Below are positions 3,215 through 39,582 of a stretch of 47,767 bases of DNA, piece by piece. The stretch's first letter is position 1; each line of letters opens with the position of its first letter. A model generated the notes under the pieces. It was not told the origin of the DNA and ran no database searches. It saw only the letters and a list, made by a program, of their open reading frames with translations. The position numbers were made by a program, and so were the translations under genes. Origin of the DNA: Candidatus Abyssobacteria bacterium SURF_5 (lineage in GTDB: Bacteria; Abyssobacteria; SURF-5); NCBI GenBank assembly GCA_003598085.1, contig QZKU01000048.1, positions 1 to 47,767 on the forward strand. Reading direction: 5' to 3'.

Positions 3215-3781
3215 ATGGATCTGAGAACGCTCCTCACGGAGAAACGCTCTGAAATCGTCGCAAAGTGGGCGCGACTGGTTTTTGAGACATATGCGCCGGA
3301 GACGTCTCGTTTTCTGAAAGGAGAAAAAGACCGGTTCGCTAACCCCGTGGGCGATGCTCTTACGCGGGGAGTGGAAGCGGTATACGATTATCTCCTAAGC
3401 GGAACTGATTCGGAGCAAGTATTACGGCATCTGGATGACATCATTCGGATAAAGGCGGTTCAGGATTTTACCCCGGCCGAGGCGCTTGATTTTCTCTTCA
3501 GATTGAAAGCGGTTGTGAGAGAGGAAGCAGATCCTTTTCTCCGGGAGAACGCGCTTTCCGTGCGGGAGTTGCTTGAATTTGAAACCAGGCTGGACAATCT
3601 GGCTCTTCAGGGATTTACGCTCTTTATGAAGTGTCGGGAGAAAATTTACGATCTGAAAGCAAGCCAGGTGAAGGACCGGACGTTTCGGCTGTTGAAAAGA
3701 GCGAATCTTGTCGTGGAGATCCCCGACCCCGAGGAGGGTCCCGGCGACGTGGAGAATATAAAGCGAGGTAAGGGTTCATGA
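3215..3781 (+). CDS. RsbRD N-terminal-like sensor domain protein upstream of dsrM
   Basis: A 188-residue soluble protein that resembles the RsbRD (RsbT co-antagonist) N-terminal domain, a helical globin-like sensor fold; a gene of this type directly precedes dsrM in several sulfate reducers. The diagnostic stretch is LLTEKRSEIVAKWARLVFET followed by FLKGEKDRFANPVGDAL. No catalytic motif or transmembrane helix is visible. I prefer the ATG at 3215 because homologues begin at this MDL; an in-frame GTG at 3203 is possible, and the nearest strong ribosome-binding site (3173-3178) is too far from either. The stop overlaps the dsrM ATG (ATGA at 3778), implying translational coupling. Function is unknown; a regulatory or assembly role for the Dsr membrane complex is inference. 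Confidence 0.75.
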   Translation: MDLRTLLTEKRSEIVAKWARLVFETYAPETSRFLKGEKDRFANPVGDALTRGVEAVYDYLLSGTDSEQVLRHLDDIIRIKAVQDFTPAEALDFLFRLKAVVREEADPFLRENALSVRELLEFETRLDNLALQGFTLFMKCREKIYDLKASQVKDRTFRLLKRANLVVEIPDPEEGPGDVENIKRGKGS

Positions 3782-4815
3782 AAATCTTCCTTCCCCTCAT
3801 CGCGGTTTTGGCGCTGGTAGGTATTGCACTCGCGGGGGTGGAACTGGCGAATCTGCAAGTATTTTTCGGGATTGTCATTCCCTATGCGGCGCTCGCCGTC
3901 TTTCTCGGCGGACTCGTATATCGGGTCTTGAAATGGGCGCGCTCGCCTGTTCCTTTCCGCATCACACTGTCGTGTGGTCAACAGAAAACGCATCCGTGGA
4001 TAAAGTCGAGCACCCTTGATAATCCGCACTCAACCGCAGGAGTCATCGGGCGGATGGCGCTTGAAATTCTTTTCTTCAGGTCGCTGTTCAGAAACACTCG
4101 GCTCGAGCTCAGGAAAGGGCCAAAGCTTTCCTATGAATGGGAGAAGTGGCTGTGGCTGGCGGCGCTCGCCTTCCACTACGCGTTCCTGATGATCCTTCTC
4201 AGGCATTTGCGCTTTTTTACCGTGCCGGTGCCCTTCTTCGTTAATGCGCTGGATCAGTTGGACGGATTCTTCCAGATCAGTGTGCCCGCACTGTATTTGA
4301 GTGATATCATTCTCGTGGCTGCGGCCACCTATCTGTTCCTGCGAAGAATCGTCATACCGCAGATCAAGTATATTTCGCTGCCGGCGGATTACTTCCCCCT
4401 GTTTCTGATTCTTGGGCTGGCGACTTCCGGCATCTTGATGCGCTATTTGCTGAGAGTGGATGTTGAAGCGATCAAGGAGCTCACGATAGGACTGGCTGCA
4501 TTCAGACCGGTTGTTCCCGCCGGAATCGGTTCGCTGTTCTACGTTCATCTGTTTCTCGTCAGCGTGCTGTTTGCATATTTCCCTTTCAGCAAGCTGATGC
4601 ATTTGGGGGGCATCTTCCTGAGCCCGACCCGGAACCTGGCGAACAATAACCGCATGCGCAGGCATATCAATCCCTGGAATTATCCTGTCAAGGTTCACAC
4701 TTATGATGAGTATGAGGAAGAGTTCAGGGACAAGATGCAGGCTGCCGGACTGCCTCTGGAAAGAGAGGCTTCCGGTGATTTGAAACCGGCCGGGCTGCCT
4801 TTGGAAAAGGAGTGA
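3778..4815 (+). CDS. dsrM: DsrM: cytochrome b subunit of DsrMKJOP
   Basis: A 345-residue integral membrane protein of the NarI-like dihaem cytochrome b family. Hydrophobic segments lie at the N-terminus (LPLIAVLALVGIALAGV), around residues 30-50 and in four further helices, including WLWLAALAFHYAFLMILL and SLFYVHLFLVSVLFAYFPFSKLMH, whose histidines are likely haem ligands. DsrM exchanges electrons between the menaquinone pool and DsrK. The cytoplasmic tail ends with an imperfect duplication (AAGLPLERE and PAGLPLEKE, 14 residues apart), which looks like a short local repeat unique to this copy. It is coupled to the preceding gene by ATGA; dsrK begins 2 nt after its stop. Confidence 0.95.
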   Translation: MKIFLPLIAVLALVGIALAGVELANLQVFFGIVIPYAALAVFLGGLVYRVLKWARSPVPFRITLSCGQQKTHPWIKSSTLDNPHSTAGVIGRMALEILFFRSLFRNTRLELRKGPKLSYEWEKWLWLAALAFHYAFLMILLRHLRFFTVPVPFFVNALDQLDGFFQISVPALYLSDIILVAAATYLFLRRIVIPQIKYISLPADYFPLFLILGLATSGILMRYLLRVDVEAIKELTIGLAAFRPVVPAGIGSLFYVHLFLVSVLFAYFPFSKLMHLGGIFLSPTRNLANNNRMRRHINPWNYPVKVHTYDEYEEEFRDKMQAAGLPLEREASGDLKPAGLPLEKE

Positions 4816-4817
4816 CA

Positions 4818-6446
4818 ATGTCAGATATTCCAGAAAGCATTCCAAAACCGGAACAGCTGGGAGTGATCGATCAGCAGTTGCCTCGCAGCGACTGGATGGA
4901 TACGCCTGTTGTATTCAAACACGGCAGCTACTGCTACAGCGCAAAATCCAAATTCATGAGCTATCTGGACCTGCCGAACCCGCGGGACTGGTCGCCGATG
5001 GATAAGGATTGGAAACTGCCGAATGACTGGCAAAGGATTATCCACGAGGGCCTTCGCGAGAGACTGTCCAAGTATCGTTCGCTCAAGGTGTTCATGGACA
5101 TCTGCGTAAGGTGCGGCGCGTGTGCCGATAAATGTCACTTCTTCATCGGTTCAGGCGACCCCAAGAACATGCCGGTCCTCAGGGCCGAGCTTCTGAGGTC
5201 CGTCTATCGAAAAGATTTCACTACCGCCGGAAAGATTCTCGGGAAGATTGCGGGCGCACGGGAACTGACGGTGGACGTGCTGAAGGAATGGTACTACTAC
5301 TTCTATCAGTGCACGGAATGCCGCCGCTGCTCTGTTTTCTGCCCATACGGGATCGATACCGCCGAGATCACCATGCTCGCGCGCGAGCTGCTGAATCTGG
5401 TCGGCCTGAACATCGGGTGGACGATCGAGCCGTGCGCCAACTGCTTCCGCACCGGCAATCATCTTGGCATCCAGCCGCACGGATTCGCAGACAGTATTGA
5501 GTTTGCCGTTGACGAGCTCGAGGAGATCACTGGGATTCGGGTCGACGCCCCGATAAACAAGAAGGGCGCGGAGATCCTCTTTATCACGCCCTCAGCCGAT
5601 TATTTTGCCTCTCCGCATTATTACACGCTGCTGGGGTATCTCGCCCTGTTCCACGAGATCGGACTCGACTACACGTGGAGCACGTTTGCCTCCGAGGGCG
5701 GCAACTTCGGCTTGTTCACCTCGCACGAGATGATCAAGCGCTTGAACGCAAAAATGTATGCAGAGGCGAAGCGACTGGGCGTGAAATGGATTCTGGGCGG
5801 AGAGTGCGGCCACATGTGGAGGGTCGTGCACCAGTACATGGATACGATGAACGGCCCGGCCGATTTCCTCCAGGAGCCGGTTTCGCCTATTACCGGGACG
5901 AGGTTCGAGAATGCGCGGTCCACGAAAATGGTCCACATTACGGAATTCACGTCGGACCTGATCCGGAATAACAAACTGAAACTCGATCCCAGCCGGAACA
6001 ATCACTGGAGAGCCACATTCCACGATTCCTGCAATCCGGCCCGAGCGCTCGGCCTGTTCGAGGAGCCAAGATACGTTATCCGCAACGTCTGCAACAACTT
6101 CTTCGAGATGCCCGACAATACCATCCGCGAACAAACCTTCTGCTGCGGCAGCGGCGCGGGTCTGGGCAACGATGAAAACATGGAGATGCGCCTGCGGGGC
6201 GGGCTTCCGCGCGCGAACGCCGTCAGGCACGTGCACGAGAAGCACGGCGTCAATATTCTGCTCTGCATGTGCGCCATCGATAAAGCGACCCTGCCGCCGT
6301 TGATGGAGTATTGGGTGCCAGGAGTCGAGGTGGGCGGTATTCATGAGCTGGTGGCAAATGCGCTGGTGTTAACGGGCGAAAAGGAGAGGACGACCGACGT
6401 ACGCGGCGAGCCCCTCATGAAGGAGGAGGACACGAAGGATGTATGA
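4818..6446 (+). CDS. dsrK: DsrK: HdrD-like catalytic iron-sulfur subunit
   Basis: A 542-residue cytoplasmic-face protein related to heterodisulfide reductase HdrD. Two [4Fe-4S] ferredoxin motifs are seen: CVRCGACADKC (Cys 96, 99, 102, 106) and CTECRRCSVFC (Cys 165, 168, 171, 175). The CCG-type site for the special catalytic [4Fe-4S] cluster includes Cys405 in HDSCNPAR, Cys442-Cys443 in CCGSGAG and the later CMC. DsrK is the proposed site of DsrC trisulfide reduction. I choose the ATG at 4818 because AAAAGGAG ends 5 nt before it; the GTG at 4812 overlaps that site. Its end overlaps dsrJ by 8 nt. Confidence 0.96.
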   Translation: MSDIPESIPKPEQLGVIDQQLPRSDWMDTPVVFKHGSYCYSAKSKFMSYLDLPNPRDWSPMDKDWKLPNDWQRIIHEGLRERLSKYRSLKVFMDICVRCGACADKCHFFIGSGDPKNMPVLRAELLRSVYRKDFTTAGKILGKIAGARELTVDVLKEWYYYFYQCTECRRCSVFCPYGIDTAEITMLARELLNLVGLNIGWTIEPCANCFRTGNHLGIQPHGFADSIEFAVDELEEITGIRVDAPINKKGAEILFITPSADYFASPHYYTLLGYLALFHEIGLDYTWSTFASEGGNFGLFTSHEMIKRLNAKMYAEAKRLGVKWILGGECGHMWRVVHQYMDTMNGPADFLQEPVSPITGTRFENARSTKMVHITEFTSDLIRNNKLKLDPSRNNHWRATFHDSCNPARALGLFEEPRYVIRNVCNNFFEMPDNTIREQTFCCGSGAGLGNDENMEMRLRGGLPRANAVRHVHEKHGVNILLCMCAIDKATLPPLMEYWVPGVEVGGIHELVANALVLTGEKERTTDVRGEPLMKEEDTKDV

Positions 6447-6825
6447 CGGCGGAAAAATCATTGCCGGGTTGGTCATCTTCCTCGGTGTGGTGACTTTCCC
6501 GTTCTGGTACACTCAAGCAAATGAAGAAGCCATTGAGAAACCGCAGTTATTGCTTCCGGCAGACGAGACCGAATGCGTGGAACCCACCGCTTACATGCGG
6601 GCATCTCACATGCAGATGCTCAACGAATGGAGAGACTTCGTCGTTCGGGAGGGACAGGCGACGTACCTGTCCAGCACCGGAAAGATGTACGAGATGAGCC
6701 TCACCCGCACCTGCATGAAGTGCCACACGAGCCGGCAGGAGTTCTGCAACAAGTGTCATGCGTATTCCGGCGTGAGCACTCCGTACTGCTGGGATTGTCA
6801 TGTTGAGCCGAAGGAGAGTGCCTGA
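6439..6825 (+). CDS. dsrJ: DsrJ: triheme cytochrome c
   Basis: 128 residues with one N-terminal membrane anchor (residues about 7-23) and a periplasmic domain with three CXXCH haem c motifs at residues 92-96 (CMKCH), 103-107 (CNKCH) and 117-121 (CWDCH). Cys46, in DETECVEP, is the conserved extra cysteine that in the Allochromatium DsrJ has been implicated as an unusual haem ligand. DsrJ is the periplasmic electron-transfer part of DsrMKJOP. The ATG sits 8 nt inside the dsrK end, after an AAGGAGGAGG ribosome-binding region. The stop overlaps the dsrO ATG. Confidence 0.96.
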   Translation: MYDGGKIIAGLVIFLGVVTFPFWYTQANEEAIEKPQLLLPADETECVEPTAYMRASHMQMLNEWRDFVVREGQATYLSSTGKMYEMSLTRTCMKCHTSRQEFCNKCHAYSGVSTPYCWDCHVEPKESA

Positions 6826-7595
6826 TGAAGAGCCGAAGGAGCTTTCTGAAGATATCCGGGGCCTGCCTTCTCGGGTTGGGAGTGAAACCCGTGCTCAATG
6901 CCTTCGCGCAGGCGGAGCGGATGGAGATCGCGCCGAATCCGAACGCGCTTCGCGCCGGGCGCTGGGCTCTGGTGGTCGATATCACAAAGTGCCGGGACGA
7001 TTGCACCGACTGCATAAACGCCTGCAATCGCGCTCACAATATTCCCGATCTTGGAAGAACGAAAGAGGAAGTGAAATGGATATGGAATGAATCCTACGAG
7101 CACGCTTTCCCGGGCGTTGAGCACGAGTTCGTCGAGGAGCGCGTCAAGCATCAGCCGTTCATGGTGCTGTGCAACCATTGCGATAATCCGCCGTGCGTGC
7201 GCGTGTGCCCGGTTCAGGCCACCTGGAAGCGCGAGGACGGCATCGTAATGATGGACTTCCATCGCTGTATCGGGTGCAGGTGTTGTATGGCCGCGTGCCC
7301 GTATGGATCGAGGAGCTTCAACTGGACCGATCCGCGCCCGTATATTCCCGAGGGGAGGATGAATCCGGACTTCCCGACGAGAACCAAGGGAGTTGTCGAG
7401 AAATGCAATTTCTGCGTCGAGAGGCTCGCAAAGGGACTTCAGCCGGCATGCGTCGAAAGCTGCAGCTCGGGCGTGCTCACCTTCGGAGATCTGGATGATC
7501 CCAATTCTGAGGTGAGGAAAGTCCTTGGAGAGCGTTACTCCATTCAGCGCAAACCCGAGCTTGGAACCAGGCCGAGAGTGTACTATATCCTGTGA
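6825..7595 (+). CDS. dsrO: DsrO: periplasmic ferredoxin-like iron-sulfur subunit
   Basis: 256 residues. The N-terminus is a Tat signal, SRRSFLK followed by a hydrophobic run ([10 protein letters not shown]), so the folded protein is exported with its clusters. Cysteine groups typical of DMSO-reductase B-type subunits follow: [40 protein letters not shown] and [11 protein letters not shown] with a final CVESC. DsrO passes electrons between DsrP in the membrane and DsrJ. Its ATG overlaps the dsrJ TGA (6823-6825); dsrP follows after 7 nt. Confidence 0.96.
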
Positions 7596-7602
7596 GGGAG
7601 CC

Positions 7603-8757
7603 ATGTTGGAAAAAGCTTTTTACGGAAGTCGAAGTTATTACGCGTGGATTCTGTTCTTGCTCATTGTAATCGGGGCGGGCGCCGGCTGCTACGCATATCA
7701 GTTGGTTGACGGCCTTCGCATCACCGGCATGGGCAGAGACATCTCGTGGGGGCTGTACATCGCCCAACTCACCTTCCTGGTTGGCGTGGCGGCGTCGGCG
7801 GTGATGGTCGTCATTCCGTATTATCTGCATAATTACAAAGCATTCGGCAAGATCACCGTTCTGGGAGAATTTCTGGCGGTTTCGGCCGTCACCATGTGCG
7901 GGCTCTTTGTTATCGTCGACCTCGGCACGCCGGCGCGCGCCTTCAACCTGATCCTGTATCCGACCCCCAACTCGATCCTGTTCTGGGATATGATCGTGTT
8001 GAATATGTATCTTGTGCTCAACATCGTGATCGCCTGGAACGTTCTTTCGGCGGAGCGCAAGTCGACGCCGCCTCCCGGATGGGTGAAGCCGCTCATCTAC
8101 CTGTCGATCCCCTGGGCCGTGAGCATTCACACCGTGACCGCTTTTCTCTATGCGGGTCTTCCGGGAAGGCATCTGTGGCTGACCGCAATTTTGGCCGTCC
8201 GCTTCCTGGGATCGGCATTTGCCGCAGGTCCTTCGCTCCTCATACTCCTGTGTCTGCTCGTGAGGAAGGTGAGCAAGTTCGATCCGGGCCGCGAGGCCAT
8301 CCAGAGCCTGGCAAAGATCGTGACGTACGCGCTTATCGCCAGCATATTCTTTGTCGGACTCGAATTCTTTACCGCATACTACAGTCAGGTTCCCGGCCAT
8401 ATACACAGCCTCGAGTACCTGTACTTCGGTCTTGAGGGCCACGCGAAGCTGGTCCCCTGGATGAGGATCTCGGCGCTGCTCGCGATTGTCGCGCTTGTTT
8501 TCCTCGTGAATCCTGCAACGCGGCGGAATGAGAAAACGCTGGCTGTCGCTGCCGCACTCACCTTCATTTCGCTCTGGATCGAGAAAGGGCTTGGCTTGGT
8601 ACTGGCCGGCTTCATTCCCAACCCATTCGAGCATATTACCGAATATTCGCCGACGGCGCCGGAACTCATGATCACGTTCGCTATCTATGCAATTGGATTG
8701 CTGATCCTGACGGTGCTGTATAAGGTGGCCATCTCCGTAAAGGAAGAAGCCGCTTAA
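7603..8757 (+). CDS. dsrP: DsrP: NrfD-family integral membrane quinone-interacting subunit
   Basis: 384 residues, about ten transmembrane helices, NrfD/PsrC family. The early signature [17 protein letters not shown] is typical of DsrP. With DsrO it forms the second quinone-linked module of the complex. The ATG at 7603 is chosen because GAGGGA lies 3-8 nt before it and the protein then starts MLEKAFYGS, as in homologues; the longer in-frame reading from 7525 would lie inside dsrO. It is the last gene of the dsr string: a strong terminator begins 14 nt after the stop. Confidence 0.96.
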
Positions 8758-8919: not shown

Positions 8920-9930
8920 GTGAGCGCCAGGAGTCGGATGGGTAAGGTTCTCGGTGAAAAATCTCGAGATTGGCTGTGCCGGCGCGCCGCCGAGTTTTCA
9001 AGCATTCCGGTGGAAGACCTGAAGGTTGTCAGCGACACAACCGAATTCATGAATATCCACCGGGGACACATCCTCGAATTGGACGGGCGGCATTTCCTGG
9101 TGACAGGCTACATCTACGAGGCTCGCTTCGGTCTCAGTGACGAGCCGAAATACTGGGTGAAAAAGGCGATAGATCTGGAAGCGGGGAGCCAGCAGATCGT
9201 CAAGCTTTCGCACCGTGAGGAGTTTCACATGCGTATCGGCCGCCTCAGGATTCGCTGCTACCGGAATCCGCACAAGGAAGCGCAGGTGCTTGAACTTGTC
9301 CGCGGGAACCCCAACTTCATGCAGGGGTATTCTCTGTTCGACGGGCGCGGGAACGAGGTGAGAGTGGTCGATATTATCCGCGGGAAAAGCATTTACGACG
9401 TCATCTTGAACATGAATACGACTCATGAGGAATACTTCTATGGCCCGTTTCCCGGAATTCTCAGAAAAGTCGCGGGCTGCATCGCATCTCTGCAGTTCCT
9501 GCACGATCACAATCTTTGCCACGGCGATATCCGGAACGACCATATCCTGATCGAGCAGGACACCGGGTTGTACCGGTGGATCGATTTCGACCTGACTCAG
9601 GATTTCTCCGACCTCGATATCTGGAGCGTCGGCAATATCCTGCAATTCTGTGTGGGAATGGGGATGAAGACGTTCCGGGAAGTTCTCCAATCAGATGATT
9701 ATCCGGCATCTGTAAAAAATGATCTGTGCGCCGATGACGCCTCGGCCTTTTACGAGCACAGGATCATGAACCTGCAGAAACTTTTCCCATATATTCCCGA
9801 CAGCCTTAACGACATCCTGCTTCACTTCGCAGTGAATACCAACCGATTTTACACCTCGATTTCTCAGATCGTTTCGGATATCGACGCTACGCTCGAGGAA
9901 ATGTCCTCTCCGACGGATACCAGGCCATGA
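8920..9930 (+). CDS. Protein-kinase/aminoglycoside-phosphotransferase-fold protein
   Basis: 336 residues. The catalytic loop reads HGDIRNDHIL (His201, Asp203), and IDFD a little later serves as the metal-binding DFG/DFD segment, so the protein has the ATP-grasping kinase fold of the APH/RIO/Ser-Thr kinase clan. A glycine-rich loop is not obvious, and the N-lobe lysine (VKKAIDLE or IVKLSHRE) is uncertain. The substrate is unknown. The GTG start at 8920 has AGGGGA 5 nt upstream. The stop overlaps the ATG of the histidine kinase gene (ATGA at 9927), so the two are translationally coupled, which suggests that it acts in the same signalling pathway. No transmembrane segment is visible. Confidence 0.75.
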   Translation: MSARSRMGKVLGEKSRDWLCRRAAEFSSIPVEDLKVVSDTTEFMNIHRGHILELDGRHFLVTGYIYEARFGLSDEPKYWVKKAIDLEAGSQQIVKLSHREEFHMRIGRLRIRCYRNPHKEAQVLELVRGNPNFMQGYSLFDGRGNEVRVVDIIRGKSIYDVILNMNTTHEEYFYGPFPGILRKVAGCIASLQFLHDHNLCHGDIRNDHILIEQDTGLYRWIDFDLTQDFSDLDIWSVGNILQFCVGMGMKTFREVLQSDDYPASVKNDLCADDASAFYEHRIMNLQKLFPYIPDSLNDILLHFAVNTNRFYTSISQIVSDIDATLEEMSSPTDTRP

Positions 9931-11450
9931 AACTGCTGAAGCTGAAGAAGAGAATCGGAATCGGTGTCCGCCTGGCTATTATGGTGGCGGTGCTGATCGT
10001 GCTTTCCACCGGTTCCTTTGCATTCTTCAGCCTGATGAAGCAGCGCAGCGAAGCGATGGAACTGTTTGTCCACAACTCGATCAATATGTGCCGGTCACTC
10101 GAGCGCATCCTGCGGTTCAGCATGCTCGAAAACCGTCGCGACGAGATACAAGCGGCAATCCAGCAGATCGCCAAAGAAGACGATATCGACGGCGTGACGC
10201 TGGTGAGCCATCGCGGAGATATTGTTTACGGGGATGCGTTACAGGACCCCGAAAAAGTGACTATCGGGGACAACCGCTGTTCCGGCTGCCACGGCAACGG
10301 CTCGGAGCAGCCGCTTCCGCGGCTGGCTGAGCCGGCAGAGGTTCGGCTGCTGCATGATGCGAAGGTGGCGGAAGTGAGCCTGCCGATCTATAATGATCCG
10401 GCCTGCGCGAATGCGGCCTGTCATGCTCATACGCCGGCCGAAAGCGTGTTGGGCATCATGCAAATGAACATTTCCTATGCGCAAACAAACGAGATGTTGA
10501 ACCGCTCGTATTTTCAGCTCATGGCGCTTTCCATCGTGATCGCCCTGGTCACTTCGCTCATCGTCATGGCGCTCATCCGGCGCTGGGTGTCCAACCCGGT
10601 GAAGGACCTGCTCGACGGCACCCGCCGTGTTGCCGAAGGCGAGATCGGCCATATCATTCCGGTCGGCGAGGCCGAGCTCGGCGGGCTGGCGCGTGCTTTC
10701 AACAAGATGCAGGAGAAACTGCTCTCCAGCCAGCGACAACTTGTCACCGCCGAGAAGCTCGCGTCGATTGGAAAACTCGCTGCGTCGGTCGCGCACGAGA
10801 TCAACAATCCCTTGACCGGCATCTTGACGTTTGCGGAGGATCTGGCGGAGAATGCCGATCACAGCGATCCGCGCCGGTCCGATTTCGAAGTGATCCGGCG
10901 GCAGGCCGTCCGCTGCCGGGAGATCGTTCGGCAGTTGCTGGATTTCTCGCGCCAGGAGAAACCGAATCTGCGGCCGGTGAATGTCAACGAGGTCCTGGTG
11001 CATACGATCGAGTTTATCTCCAAACAGGCGATCTTCAGGAACATCGTGATCACGACTGACCTTGAGAACGATCTGCCTCCGGTGATCGCGGACCCGATTC
11101 AGATAGAGCAGGTGATGCTCGATCTGCTTGTGAATGCCGCTGAGGCCATGTCCGACGGCGGAAACATATTCATTTCTTCGCTGTCGCATCAACGTTCGCA
11201 TGAGGTCGAGGTGGTCGTGCGGGATACCGGGCCGGGCATTGCGGAGGAGAATCTTCCGAGAATATTCGAGCCCTTTTTCTCCACGAAGGGCGGCAAATCA
11301 ATGGGAATCGGCCTCGCAGTCAGTTGGAACATAATTAATCAACATGGCGGCAGGCTCGAGGTCGAGTCGAAGCTGGGTGAGGGAGTCACTTTCCACATCA
11401 TGATGCCTTGGGGAAAGGCGGCGCCGGCCTCGGCCGACGCGGTCGTATGA
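9927..11450 (+). CDS. Membrane sensor histidine kinase with haem c-type sensor domain
   Basis: 507 residues. Order: transmembrane helix (about 14-36); extracytoplasmic domain with a canonical CSGCH haem c motif at 118-122 and a second, spaced variant CANAACH (CX4CH) at 160-166; second helix (about 195-213); HAMP domain; dimerisation/phosphoacceptor domain with His290 in VAHEINNPLTG; and a HATPase domain with DLLVNAAEAM, DTGPGI, FEPFFSTK and GIGLA. The haem motifs suggest sensing of redox state, NO, CO or another haem ligand outside the membrane. It lies just downstream of dsrMKJOP and is coupled to the kinase-fold gene before it; the response regulator follows. Control of the dsr or related energy genes is inference. 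Confidence 0.93.
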   Translation: MKLLKLKKRIGIGVRLAIMVAVLIVLSTGSFAFFSLMKQRSEAMELFVHNSINMCRSLERILRFSMLENRRDEIQAAIQQIAKEDDIDGVTLVSHRGDIVYGDALQDPEKVTIGDNRCSGCHGNGSEQPLPRLAEPAEVRLLHDAKVAEVSLPIYNDPACANAACHAHTPAESVLGIMQMNISYAQTNEMLNRSYFQLMALSIVIALVTSLIVMALIRRWVSNPVKDLLDGTRRVAEGEIGHIIPVGEAELGGLARAFNKMQEKLLSSQRQLVTAEKLASIGKLAASVAHEINNPLTGILTFAEDLAENADHSDPRRSDFEVIRRQAVRCREIVRQLLDFSRQEKPNLRPVNVNEVLVHTIEFISKQAIFRNIVITTDLENDLPPVIADPIQIEQVMLDLLVNAAEAMSDGGNIFISSLSHQRSHEVEVVVRDTGPGIAEENLPRIFEPFFSTKGGKSMGIGLAVSWNIINQHGGRLEVESKLGEGVTFHIMMPWGKAAPASADAVV

Positions 11451-11463
11451 GACGGAGATGCGT

Positions 11464-12243
11464 ATGGCTGAACGCGTGAAAGTGCTCGTCGTTGACGATG
11501 AAGAGATCGTTCTTCAAAGCGTGCGGAAAGTGCTGAAGTCGGATGAGGAGCATGAGTTCGTGATAGATTCGGTGCTCTCGCCGGATGAGGGACTGCGCCT
11601 GCTGGATGCAGGGAAGTATGATGTTGTGGTGACCGACCTGATGATGCCGGGAATCGACGGCCTCCAGCTTATCGACCGCGTTCGGCAGGTCGACCGCGAC
11701 GCGCGGATCATCATGATCACCGGCTATGCCACGATGCGAACCGCCCTGCAGGCATTGCGCAAGGGCGCATTCGATTACATCGCGAAGCCGTTCACGAAAG
11801 AGGAGCTGCGGACCGTTGTGAAGAACGCGGCACAAGTGAAGAAGGTGTCTGAGGGCGCCGAAGAACCGGTCGAGGTCGCGGCCACCGACGAGATTCGCAG
11901 CTTCTTCAACCAGACCTACGCGCGGATGCTTCCCGATGGCACCATGTATTTCGGCGTTGAACCCGGTTTTCTTGCCACGATTGGCGCGCCGTTGAGCATC
12001 GAGATATCAAAAATCGGGGAGACCGTTCCCCAAGGGTTGCCCTTTGCCACCATAACCGGCTCGAATATGCGCGTGTTCAATCTGCGCGCTCCGTTCAGCG
12101 CGAGAATCGTCGAAATCAATGAAAAGGCTGTGCGAGATTTCTCGATCGTCCGCGAGGACCCTCGCGGCGAGGGCTGGCTGCTGCATGTGATCCCGACGGA
12201 TTTCCAGAATGAGTTGGAAAATATCACGCCGCTTCAAGAATAA
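11464..12243 (+). CDS. Response regulator with a GcvH-like (lipoyl-lysine-less) output domain
   Basis: 259 residues from the ATG at 11464; GGAG at 11454-11457 is 6 nt away, whereas the ATG at 11458 touches it. Residues 1-120 are a receiver domain: DDEE acidic pocket, phosphoacceptor Asp58 in VVTDLMMPGID, and the lysine in IAKPFTKEEL. Residues about 145-250 match glycine-cleavage H protein: a DGTMYFGVEPGFLATIGAPL segment, then RAPFSARIVEINE and REDPRGEGWLLHVIPTD. In GcvH the lipoylated lysine sits in ESVKAAS before APVSG; here that segment reads TGSNMRVFN, so the lysine is absent. No DNA-binding or AAA+ domain is present, so the output is probably protein-protein interaction or ligand binding. 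Confidence 0.88.
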   Translation: MAERVKVLVVDDEEIVLQSVRKVLKSDEEHEFVIDSVLSPDEGLRLLDAGKYDVVVTDLMMPGIDGLQLIDRVRQVDRDARIIMITGYATMRTALQALRKGAFDYIAKPFTKEELRTVVKNAAQVKKVSEGAEEPVEVAATDEIRSFFNQTYARMLPDGTMYFGVEPGFLATIGAPLSIEISKIGETVPQGLPFATITGSNMRVFNLRAPFSARIVEINEKAVRDFSIVREDPRGEGWLLHVIPTDFQNELENITPLQE

Positions 12244-35962: not shown

Positions 35963-38398
35963 TTATCCTTCGACGGGGCTTTCCGCCTTCTGTCCTTGCA
36001 GGATTCGCTGTGTTTCGGCTATCTCCTCGGGTGTAACGGCTTTGCGCAGGCGCTCCATGCGCTGCATCACTTCCTGGAACCGCACGCCTTCGGCGGCGCT
36101 GATCCACTCGAGCGCCAGTCGTTCCTTGCGGATTCCGAGCTTGTCCATCTTCTTCCACAACTTGCCGATGCGGCGCTCCGTCCAATGGTTCGCATTTATA
36201 TAATGGCAGTCGCCGATATGGCAGCCGGAAACCAGAACGACCGGCGCCCCTTTCTCGAAGGCGCGCCACACGAATTTCTCATGAACGCGTCCCGAGCACA
36301 TCGTGCGGATCAACCGGCCGTTGGACGGATACTGAAGCCGCGACACTCCGGCGAAATCGGCGCCCGCGTATGAGCACCAGTTACAGGCGAAAACCGGGAT
36401 CCGCTCCGCCGGCTGCTCTTCAAGGATGGCATCGATCTGCGCCTCGATCTGATCGTCGGTAAAATGATGCATCTCGATGGCGCCAGCCGGACATTCGGCC
36501 GCGCACGTCCCGCAGCCCGCACAGGCGGCGGTCGTGACAACAGCGGGCTTTTTCGCGCGCGTATCGACATCGATGGCATTATACGGGCATACTTTCGCGC
36601 ACAGGCCGCACGAGGTGCACAAATCCGGATTGACTTCCGCCGTGATCGACTCGACCTTCAGGCGTCCTGGATTCATCAGCCGCATCGACCGGGCCGCCGC
36701 GGCGGACGCCTGCGTCACCGATTCGCGGATATCCTTCGGTCCGTCGGCGCAGCCGGCGAAAAAGACGCCGCGCGTGGCGGAATCGACCGGCTGAAGCTTG
36801 GGATGCGCTTCGAGGAAGAACCCTTCGGACGTGCGCTGCAGCGTCAGCATCTCCTGCACAATGTTCATGTCCTCCGGCGGCTGGAGGGCAACCGCCAGCA
36901 CCACCATTTCCACCCGGTGTGTTTCGAGTTCGTTGCTTGCGGTATTCTCGACGGTCAGAATCAGGTCGCGCGTCTTCGGGTCTTCCTTGATTGAGCCGGG
37001 AAGCCCGCGTATGTAGCGCACGCCCGTCCCTTTACTCCGCCGGAACAACTCCTCGAACCCCTTGCCGAACGCCCGAATATCGATATAAAACACTTTCACC
37101 TCGATATCGGGATAGTGCTCCTTCAACATGAGCGTGCTCTTGATCGTGTTCATGCAGCAGATGTTCGAGCAATAGGGACGCCCGCGCGTCTGCGAGCGCG
37201 AGCCGACGCATTGGATGAACGCGATAGATTTCGGTTGTCGGCGATCCGTGAGGCGAACTACCTCTCCCTTGGTCGGGCCCCCCGCATTGATCAGACGTTC
37301 CAACTCGATACTCGTGACGACGTTCTCATACCTGGTGTATCCGTACTCGTCAAGGATCGTCGGATCATAAATATCGATGCCGGTGGCGACAATTATTGTG
37401 CCGACGTCGAATTCGAGCATTTCATCATTCATGTTGAAGTCGATGCAGTGTTTCTCGCACTTCAAGATGCATTTGCCGCAGATTATCGGATTGTGGCCGA
37501 GACAATTCTTCATGTCGACGACATATGCGGAAGGAACCGCCTGGGGAAACGGAGAATAGATCGCCCGGCGCGTGTTCAGCCCCATGTTGAATTCATCCGG
37601 AACGGTGACAGGGCAATCCTTAATACAGTCGCCGCAGGCGGTGCATTCGCCTTCCTTTACGTACCGCGCCCGTTTGAGCACCTGCACGTGGAAGTTGCCG
37701 ACGTACCCCGTGACCTTCTTGACTTCGCTCAGGGTGAGCAGCGTTATGTTTGGATGCCGACCGGCATCAGTCATCTTCGGACCGAGTATTCATATGGAGC
37801 AGTCCATGGTTGGAAACGTCTTATCCAACCTGGCCATGATCCCTCCAATGCTCGGCTCCTTCTCCACGAGGATGACCTTATAGCCGGAATCGGCCAGATC
37901 GAGCGCGGCCTGTATGCCGGCGATTCCGCCGCCGATCACCAGCGTCGAGCGCCGGATCGGGACTTCGGTCTCCGCCCGCGTCTTCAAGCGGCGCGCGCGC
38001 GCGACCGCCGATCGGACGAGGTCGCCCGCCTTGAGGGTTGCGCCTTCCCGATCGTGGCCGTGGACCCAGGAACACTGCTCGCGCAGGTTCGCCATTTCGA
38101 GCAGGTACGGATTGAGGCCGGCCTCGCTGATGCACTGCCGGAACGTCGGCTCGTGCAGTCTCGGAGAGCATGAGGCGACCACGATCCGGTTCAAGCCCTC
38201 TTCCTGAATGTCCTTCTTAATCAGGTTCTGGCCCGGCTCCGAACACAGGTAGCCGTCATGTCGCGCGAGAACGACGTCGGGAAGCTGTTTTGCACGCTCG
38301 GCCACAGCCTCGCAATCGACCACGCCCGCAATATTCAACCCGCAGTGGCACACGTACACGCCGATTCGGCACGTCTCATTTGTTCCCGTTTCTTGCAT
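35963..38398 (-). CDS. hdrA: HdrA-MvhD fusion flavoprotein, selenoprotein (Sec203 at TGA)
   Basis: Read through one in-frame TGA (37792-37790) this is an 811-residue protein; without it there are two pieces with 15 nt between them in the same frame. The N-terminus [18 protein letters not shown] and REQCSWVH are HdrA hallmarks; [19 protein letters not shown] binds FAD. The TGA falls in [19 protein letters not shown], where HdrA normally has Cys. Iron-sulfur motifs follow at 252 ([11 protein letters not shown]), 594 ([11 protein letters not shown]) and 626 ([11 protein letters not shown]). From about 665 an MvhD domain is fused: [21 protein letters not shown] and GCHIGDCHY. HdrA carries the flavin that bifurcates or confurcates electrons. 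The ATG at 38398 has AAGGAG upstream; HdrD lies 14 nt before. Confidence 0.9.
37753..37768 (-). promoter_or_regulatory. Putative bacterial SECIS hairpin
   Basis: On the minus strand GATGCC-GGTC-GGCATC forms a perfect 6-bp stem with a GGUC loop; the loop starts 28 nt after the TGA. E. coli fdhF SECIS also has a GGUC apical loop, and bacterial SECIS loops lie about 16-37 nt downstream of the UGA. SelB would bind here to insert selenocysteine. Confidence 0.75.
37790..37792 (-). other. Recoded UGA: selenocysteine codon 203 of hdrA
   Basis: In-frame TGA at the place of a conserved HdrA cysteine; both sides align continuously to HdrA without a frame change. selA, selB, selC and selD are not in the window. 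Confidence 0.85.
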
Positions 38399-38412
38399 TC
38401 CGCTCCTTCCCC

Positions 38413-39582
38413 CTATTTCCCCGACCATTCGATATGGTCCGCCAGCACCGACACCAAATCCCGTATCTCCAACTTCAACGAACCGCGGCTGTAAGGGTCC
38501 CGCATCGTGCACGTCAGGTGGATCATGCATTTCGGACAGGCGGTAATCAATGTCTCGGCTCCTGTCGATTTCGCCTCCTTCAGGCGCTGAACCTGGACCC
38601 GCTTGGAATAGGCGTCGCAGTTTATGAACGCGTTGTTGCCGCAGCAGAGCGCGCTGTGTTTTGAATTCTCCATTTCCCGAAGCCTCGCCTGCGGAATCAA
38701 CGACAGCAGCGTGCGCGGCGTATCATAACATCCGGATATCCTGCCAAGGCGGCACGGATCCTGGAACGTCAGCTTGCGCTTGAACGGCTTGAACGCGACG
38801 CCACCCTTCTTTATTTCTCGCTCGAGGAGGTGAATCAGCAACGTTACTTTTATGTCGAAGCCCGAAATGACCTTCGGCATGTATGTGCCGAGCGTATGGT
38901 AGCATTCAGGACACGTCACCACGACTTCTTCAACACCTGCCGCTTTGAATTCCTCATAGTTGAGGCGGCACAAGGTTTCAAAGTTTTCCTGGTCGCCAGT
39001 CCACAGCAGATCATGACCGCAGCATCGCTCATTTGCAAGAAGCACCGGTTCTATTGAGAGAAAATTCAGAAGACGCACGCTGTCGCGGATGATTGAAAGC
39101 GTGTCAACCTCGATCCCGGAGAAAAAAACGTCGAAATACGGGGCGCAGCCGGTAAAAAAGGCGATAGGCCCATGAGTCGCCGTCTTTACCCGCGGATCCA
39201 CCCATCCCAGTCTCTCCTGCTGAAGTTCGGGCGACGTCATCATTCGCATCCACGAGTGAAGCGCGCCGTCATGAGCGCGATATCCTCTCAGCCCCTTCGA
39301 TTTTGCCAGCAGCGTGCGCATCTCCAGGATCAGATGACTGATATCGACGCCCGAGGGGCAGCGCTCTTCGCACAGTCCGCACGTCAGGCATTCCCACACG
39401 GAGCTCTCGATAAAGGTCTCGTCCTCGCGCTCGGCGATCAGTTTGTGCGCCAGGAGCCGAGGCGAATACTCTTTTCCTGCAATCAGGCGCGGACACGACG
39501 CGGAACATTTCCCGCACTCCAGACACTGGTGGAGCGAGTGCTTGCGGATTATTTCGTCTATTCTTTTATCGAAGTCGTCCAC
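38413..39582 (-). CDS. HdrD-type (HdrC-HdrB fused) heterodisulfide reductase-like subunit
   Basis: 389 residues. N-terminal HdrC-like part: two [4Fe-4S] motifs, [13 protein letters not shown] (from residue 20) and [14 protein letters not shown]. The C-terminal HdrB-like part has two CCG domains: [18 protein letters not shown] and CPECYHT in the first; [18 protein letters not shown] and CPKCMIHL in the second, sites for noncubane [4Fe-4S] clusters that split disulfides. The natural disulfide is unknown; DsrC trisulfide or CoM-like thiols are possible. Start is GTG at 39582, inside the end of the MvhD-like gene (25 nt overlap), with a weak AGGA site. It ends 14 nt before hdrA, so it probably forms a complex with HdrA. 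Confidence 0.88.

Follow-up and report, generated by a model that had tools for sequence, protein, structure and literature searches.

A response regulator with a lipoyl-less GcvH-like output domain, encoded beside dsrMKJOP in Candidatus Abyssobacteria bacterium SURF_5

Described relatives and the window locus

The protein described here resembles H-proteins (GcvH, PF01597) in its fold and in the signature motifs APxSG and DPxGxGWL. GcvH-like as well are the LbpA proteins, which bind lipoate in the sHdr pathway of sulfur oxidation and whose genes lie beside those of Hdr-type sulfur enzymes (PMC6067878). LbpA is defined by a strictly conserved lipoyl lysine; this residue was present in all 95 LbpA proteins studied, their genes were found within or beside hdr-like clusters, and the sHdr cluster contains its own lipoate ligase (PMC6067878). 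Like LbpA, our protein is GcvH-like and encoded near genes of sulfur enzymes, in this case dsrMKJOP. It differs from both families in the absence of the lysine and in its fusion to a receiver domain, from GcvH moreover in not being encoded together with gcvT and gcvP, and from LbpA in the lack of an sHdr cluster and of LplA or LipB homologues in the neighbourhoods. Because the lysine was tested for and is absent, the protein is neither a GcvH nor an LbpA. With an intact receiver and an output that is not a DNA-binding one, it is comparable to those response regulators whose output domain binds proteins or has enzymatic activity.

A second point of reference is the regulation of membrane-bound redox complexes. 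Rrf1 is a response regulator. The genes rrf1 and rrf2 adjoin the hmc operon of Desulfovibrio (PMC10924467), i.e. regulator genes are linked to the Hmc complex, and the relatives of our protein are likewise linked to complexes with HmcB- and HmcC-like subunits. For one type of Fe-S/NrfD/multihaem module, a survey reported no conserved flanking genes (PMC10924467); the loci described below provide some of the Fe-S/NrfD/multihaem modules with conserved partners, namely a kinase and lipoyl-less GcvH proteins. In the openly accessible literature, we found neither a lipoyl-less H-protein as output domain, nor a fusion of receiver and GcvH, nor a GcvH linked to NrfD or DsrMKJOP.

The window, which is the whole stretch of 47,767 nucleotides that was analysed, belongs to a genome of 5.10 Mb in 145 contigs, that of a sulfur bacterium from the deep subsurface. 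It contains a co-directional run of genes, which consists of a DsrC/TusE-like gene, two unknowns, dsrM, K, J, O and P, a protein-kinase-like gene, a histidine kinase gene and, in last position, the gene of the regulator, which we call REC-GcvH. The features are as follows.

3778..4815, +, DsrM (NF038037, 6.9e-168)
4812..6446, +, DsrK (NF045796, 4e-225)
6439..6825, +, DsrJ, triheme (NF038038, 5.9e-50)
6825..7595, +, DsrO, Fe-S (NF045797, 1.3e-95)
7525..8757, +, DsrP, NrfD-type membrane subunit (NF045798, 3.9e-142)
8920..9930, +, gene resembling protein kinases, located after dsrP and before the histidine kinase (Pfam Pkinase at 1.2e-6, which is below cut-off)
9927..11450, +, cognate sensor histidine kinase (HAMP, HisKA, HATPase_c), ending 7-13 bp upstream of the regulator
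10278..10292, +, CSGCH (CxxCH) motif in the kinase region N-terminal to HAMP
10404-10424, CANAACH (CX4CH), second motif of the histidine kinase
11464..12243, +, REC-GcvH response regulator, 259 aa (P0001; ATG at 11464, alternative in-frame ATG at 11458)
11464..11838, +, receiver domain, residues 1-125 (Pfam Response_reg, 3.3e-29), with the acidic pair D11/D12, the phospho-acceptor D58 (codon 11635-11637), T86 and K108
11893..12240, +, lipoyl-less GcvH-like output domain, residues 144-259 (Pfam GCV_H; Foldseek 3a7a_B)
12067..12069, +, codon of Met202, which aligns with the lysine that bears the lipoyl group in H-proteins (profile alignment)

The genome of the window shares the order dsrMKJOP, kinase-like gene, histidine kinase and REC-GcvH with G001 and G002 (SURF_17), the only two others from its phylum; their orthologues have 66 and 63 percent identity to the regulator of the window. 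The CxxCH/CX4CH motif pair of the kinase also occurs in kinases of other phyla.

The initial annotation had described the regulator as ending in a GcvH-like domain that has lost its lipoyl lysine and as being devoid of a DNA-binding domain, and the closer analysis bears this out. Pfam assigns Response_reg to residues 7-119 and GCV_H to residues 152-250, the latter with 7.7e-9 and 35.9 bits, which exceeds the gathering score of 22.2. Among 14 matches of the C-terminal part to PDB sequences, 13 are H-proteins (best value 9e-11), and the remaining one is a marginal match to a designed beta-trefoil. The AlphaFold2 model, built from ten relatives, has a pLDDT of 87 and a pTM of 0.77. Among the Foldseek matches to this model, the E. 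coli apo-H-protein 3a7a_B ranks first with a TM-score by target of 0.83 and an rmsd of 1.9, ahead of receiver domains and other H-proteins; a chance match to the GCV_H profile is ruled out by this structure search. Neither Pfam nor the predicted structure contains a DNA-binding domain of the kinds found in OmpR, NarL or NtrC type outputs, and no domain besides Response_reg and GCV_H was detected. In the hairpin 'TITGSNMRVFNLRAPFSA', Met202 takes the place of the lipoyl lysine; the hairpin is free of lysine, the closest ones being K183 and K221.

Among 55 REC domains, every readable member has the receiver residues D12, D58, T86 and K108 (one reads X), and D11 is retained in 53 of these. Thus, the cofactor site was lost and the switch was retained. 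A pseudogene or decayed protein can be rejected in view of the invariant REC residues and the maintenance of the GcvH-like domain across phyla. As expected of a response regulator, REC-GcvH has the phosphorylation residues, and in 32 of 33 loci of soluble REC-GcvH a histidine kinase gene related to that of the window is located on the same strand at a distance of at most 212 bp. In kind, REC-GcvH is a response regulator whose output is unusual and of the protein type.

Distribution and gene neighbourhoods

Relatives were classified with a full-length profile (A3), for which true REC-GcvH proteins score above about 190 bits over both domains and receiver-only matches reach at most 163 bits; G262 is borderline at 168 bits and was left out of the REC-GcvH count. 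A scan of contigs with a three-member alignment gave only the two relatives from the phylum and one ordinary GcvH; the profile of the GcvH-like part extended to other phyla. Positive are all 3 genomes from the own phylum, 15 of the 40 that represent the phylum of G345, 4 of 10 in that of G131, 5 of 9 in that of G054, both G242 and G106 (2/2), 1 of 5 in the phylum of G208 (with two copies), as well as G321 and G145. Soluble REC-GcvH proteins are therefore present in at least six phyla, i.e. in at least five besides the own one, as the genome sets listed for these phyla do not overlap. In a domain-wide spread of 386 genomes, a two-domain match was found in 12, including G262.

A tree of GcvH domains was computed from 80 rows and 147 columns; the placement of its root and of the deep branches carries no weight. 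Here, the soluble REC-GcvH domains form one clade (100/95), and the lysine-type GcvH proteins form another (100/96). A separate clade (100/96) consists of TM-REC-GcvH proteins, which possess an N-terminal membrane anchor with positive charges after the helix, and is nested among TM-GcvH proteins (99/91), which are anchored GcvH-like proteins without a receiver. The GcvH domain of the window clusters with hydrogenase-linked domains (98/85).

The neighbours of 33 soluble REC-GcvH genes were surveyed; many of these loci stem from one phylum and are hence not independent, the linkage pattern nevertheless recurs in several phyla. On the same strand and within 9 kb, an NrfD-type gene was found in 24, an Fe-S gene in 23 and a [NiFe]-hydrogenase gene in 5 of the 33 cases. 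The NrfD and Fe-S partners are typically accompanied by a multihaem cytochrome with up to 14 CxxCH motifs, and by profile name the partner genes are HmcB/HybA-like, HmcC/HybB-like and HmcA-like. The next gene, at less than 400 bp, encodes a TM-REC-GcvH in 21 of 33 loci; the most frequent order is Fe-S protein, NrfD, 13-haem cytochrome, histidine kinase, REC-GcvH and TM-REC-GcvH. The hydrogenase in the phylum of G131 is of the Vhu type with HdrA2 and VhuD pieces, and that of G321 is sulfhydrogenase-like. It had been suggested to look for further proteins of this kind near dsr or hdr genes, and this proved productive: besides the window with its dsrMKJOP genes, relatives in G426 and G432 adjoin HdrA2/VhuD-like genes and a [NiFe]-hydrogenase. 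In G145, the REC-GcvH pair is part of a longer protein of 527 residues (L186, 8470-10050), and neither an adjacent kinase nor a related complex was found nearby.

Nearly all kinases from complex-linked loci possess a CxxCH motif followed some 40 residues later by CX4CH, both located before HAMP, and these motifs suggest haem attachment to the sensor part. The pair is missing from the hydrogenase-linked kinases and from the G208a kinase; the kinase of G131 has Cache domains in its place. As the sensor parts vary and the H-type output is the same, the input follows the partner and the output is constant.

TM-GcvH proteins occur in clusters with Fe-S, NrfD and CxxCH-kinase genes in G043, in G307 and on contig C86 of the genome studied here; that of G036 lies outside such a cluster. 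On C86 (G000; L007, 11308-19644), three consecutive genes encode TM-anchored lipoyl-less GcvH proteins, and the cluster also comprises an HmcB-like Fe-S protein, an HmcC-like NrfD protein, a CxxCH kinase, two multihaem cytochromes and, later, an NtrC-type regulator.

Mode of action and alternatives

On balance, and with moderate confidence, REC-GcvH probably belongs to a dedicated two-component system and acts on co-encoded electron-transfer complexes by way of its output, a cofactor-less H-protein fold that docks onto proteins. The adjacent histidine kinase would sense a redox or ligand state and phosphorylate D58 of the receiver; this would change the binding of the GcvH-like domain to a protein partner or its release. 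The most likely partner would be the electron-transfer complex encoded at the same locus or a protein accessory to it such as a TM-GcvH, which means DsrMKJOP in the window and HmcBC/HybAB-like complexes or a [NiFe]-hydrogenase of the HdrA/Vhu type elsewhere. In this way, activity or assembly of the complex could be tuned without DNA binding.

Such docking is supported by the linkage of the genes, by the sibling with its membrane anchor and by the lack of a DNA-binding domain, which suggest that the switch acts on membrane electron-transfer complexes or hydrogenases, not on DNA. We infer action on a protein, and phosphotransfer, direct partner and direction of the effect are to be understood in the same manner. 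A target at the membrane is favoured, because the sibling REC-GcvH is tethered there. On the other hand, neighbourhood is not interaction, and the regulator could act elsewhere. Moreover, the partner complexes differ (DsrMKJOP, HmcABC-like modules, a cytoplasmic hydrogenase), and consequently no single binding surface is evident. By homology, the Fe-S and haem subunits of HmcABC-like modules are periplasmic, which leaves mainly the cytoplasmic face of the NrfD subunit as target.

Alternatively, REC-GcvH might control transcription indirectly by binding and sequestering another regulator, for example of the NtrC type, in place of a respiratory complex. NtrC-type regulators are indeed encoded near some TM-GcvH or REC-GcvH loci, namely on C86, in G043, in G307 and in G436-G438, where a separate CxxCH kinase and the NtrC-type regulator follow downstream and could serve transcription. 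However, in most REC-GcvH loci, that of the window included, no regulator of this type is adjacent, and the membrane anchor of the sibling protein speaks against this mode of action, which we consider unlikely.

Rather improbable is a role of the GcvH-like domain as a sensor of a small molecule or redox ligand, with a metabolite in the armless groove setting the output together with phosphorylation. The H-protein barrel is retained according to Foldseek, and in many soluble members a His is conserved and the tip is acidic where the lysine was lost, which could make a ligand site. Yet the window group has no conserved polar site in common, since Phe replaces the His found elsewhere, the protein of the window contains no Cys, and an output would still be required besides this input.

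The initial annotation had envisaged binding to lipoate-dependent or lipoate-assembling proteins, which would fit the H-protein-like fold, as the H-protein is known to interact with LplA and with the P-, T- and L-proteins and 3a7a is a complex of H-protein and LplA. This proposal is now very doubtful: homologues of LipA, LipB, LplA, GcvT and GcvP were absent from all 39 neighbourhoods in a search whose positive control, the own gcv locus, covers GcvP, GcvT and GcvH only, and the gcv operon of the genome itself, whose GcvH has the lysine, is located on another contig (C56).

With respect to the lysine itself, 17 of 19 lysine-type GcvH proteins carry it at the aligned site as compared to 4 of 65 REC-GcvH, TM-REC-GcvH and TM-GcvH proteins taken together; note that the 19 yardstick proteins were chosen partly by a motif allowing lysine at this site, so that their fraction is not unbiased and the contrast alone counts. 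Its absence is common to the three architectures, with lysine in 4/33 soluble REC-GcvH, 0/22 TM-REC-GcvH and 0/10 TM-GcvH proteins. For the REC-GcvH of the window, the loss is clear from the alignment; across the soluble family it is not absolute, because the hairpin frequently contains one extra residue and the G002 orthologue has a lysine adjoining the aligned Met (NSKMR). Continued lipoylation of some members on a shifted lysine, with a merely local loss in the window, would be consistent with the four lysine-bearing soluble proteins (three of the hydrogenase group and that of G002) but is hardly credible, as these do not retain the E-x-x-K context and the lysine is missing from 29/33 soluble, 22/22 TM-REC and 10/10 TM proteins.

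Returning to docking on electron-transfer complexes, a wider reading is possible, if more doubtful: in several phyla, respiratory and hydrogenase complexes may carry phosphorylation-switched, cofactor-less H-protein subunits, namely soluble REC-GcvH and membrane-tethered TM-REC-GcvH, and thus be under direct two-component control at the protein level. If true, two-component signalling would reach respiratory chains directly, beyond gene expression, and the H-protein fold would have been reused as a signalling module.

Further observations on hdr and dsr genes

On the minus strand of the window, an HdrA2-MvhD-type gene (35966-38530) contains an in-frame TGA at 37789-37791 within 'DCSI*ILGPKM', a position which we take to be the one where HdrA has Cys or Sec. 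Judged from this context, the gene probably encodes a selenoprotein HdrA and is not a pseudogene.

In all three MAGs of the phylum, two contigs per MAG break off only a few codons into a dsrA-like gene:

G000: C54 and C97 (L209, L210)
G001: C12 and C112 (L211, L212)
G002: C87 and C125 (L213, L214)

Within each genome, the two partial genes are identical from their start codon up to the contig end, which suggests that dsrA is duplicated and that the copies were lost where the assembly breaks. The absence of dsrAB published for SURF_5 and SURF_17 (PMC6121073) may be an artefact.
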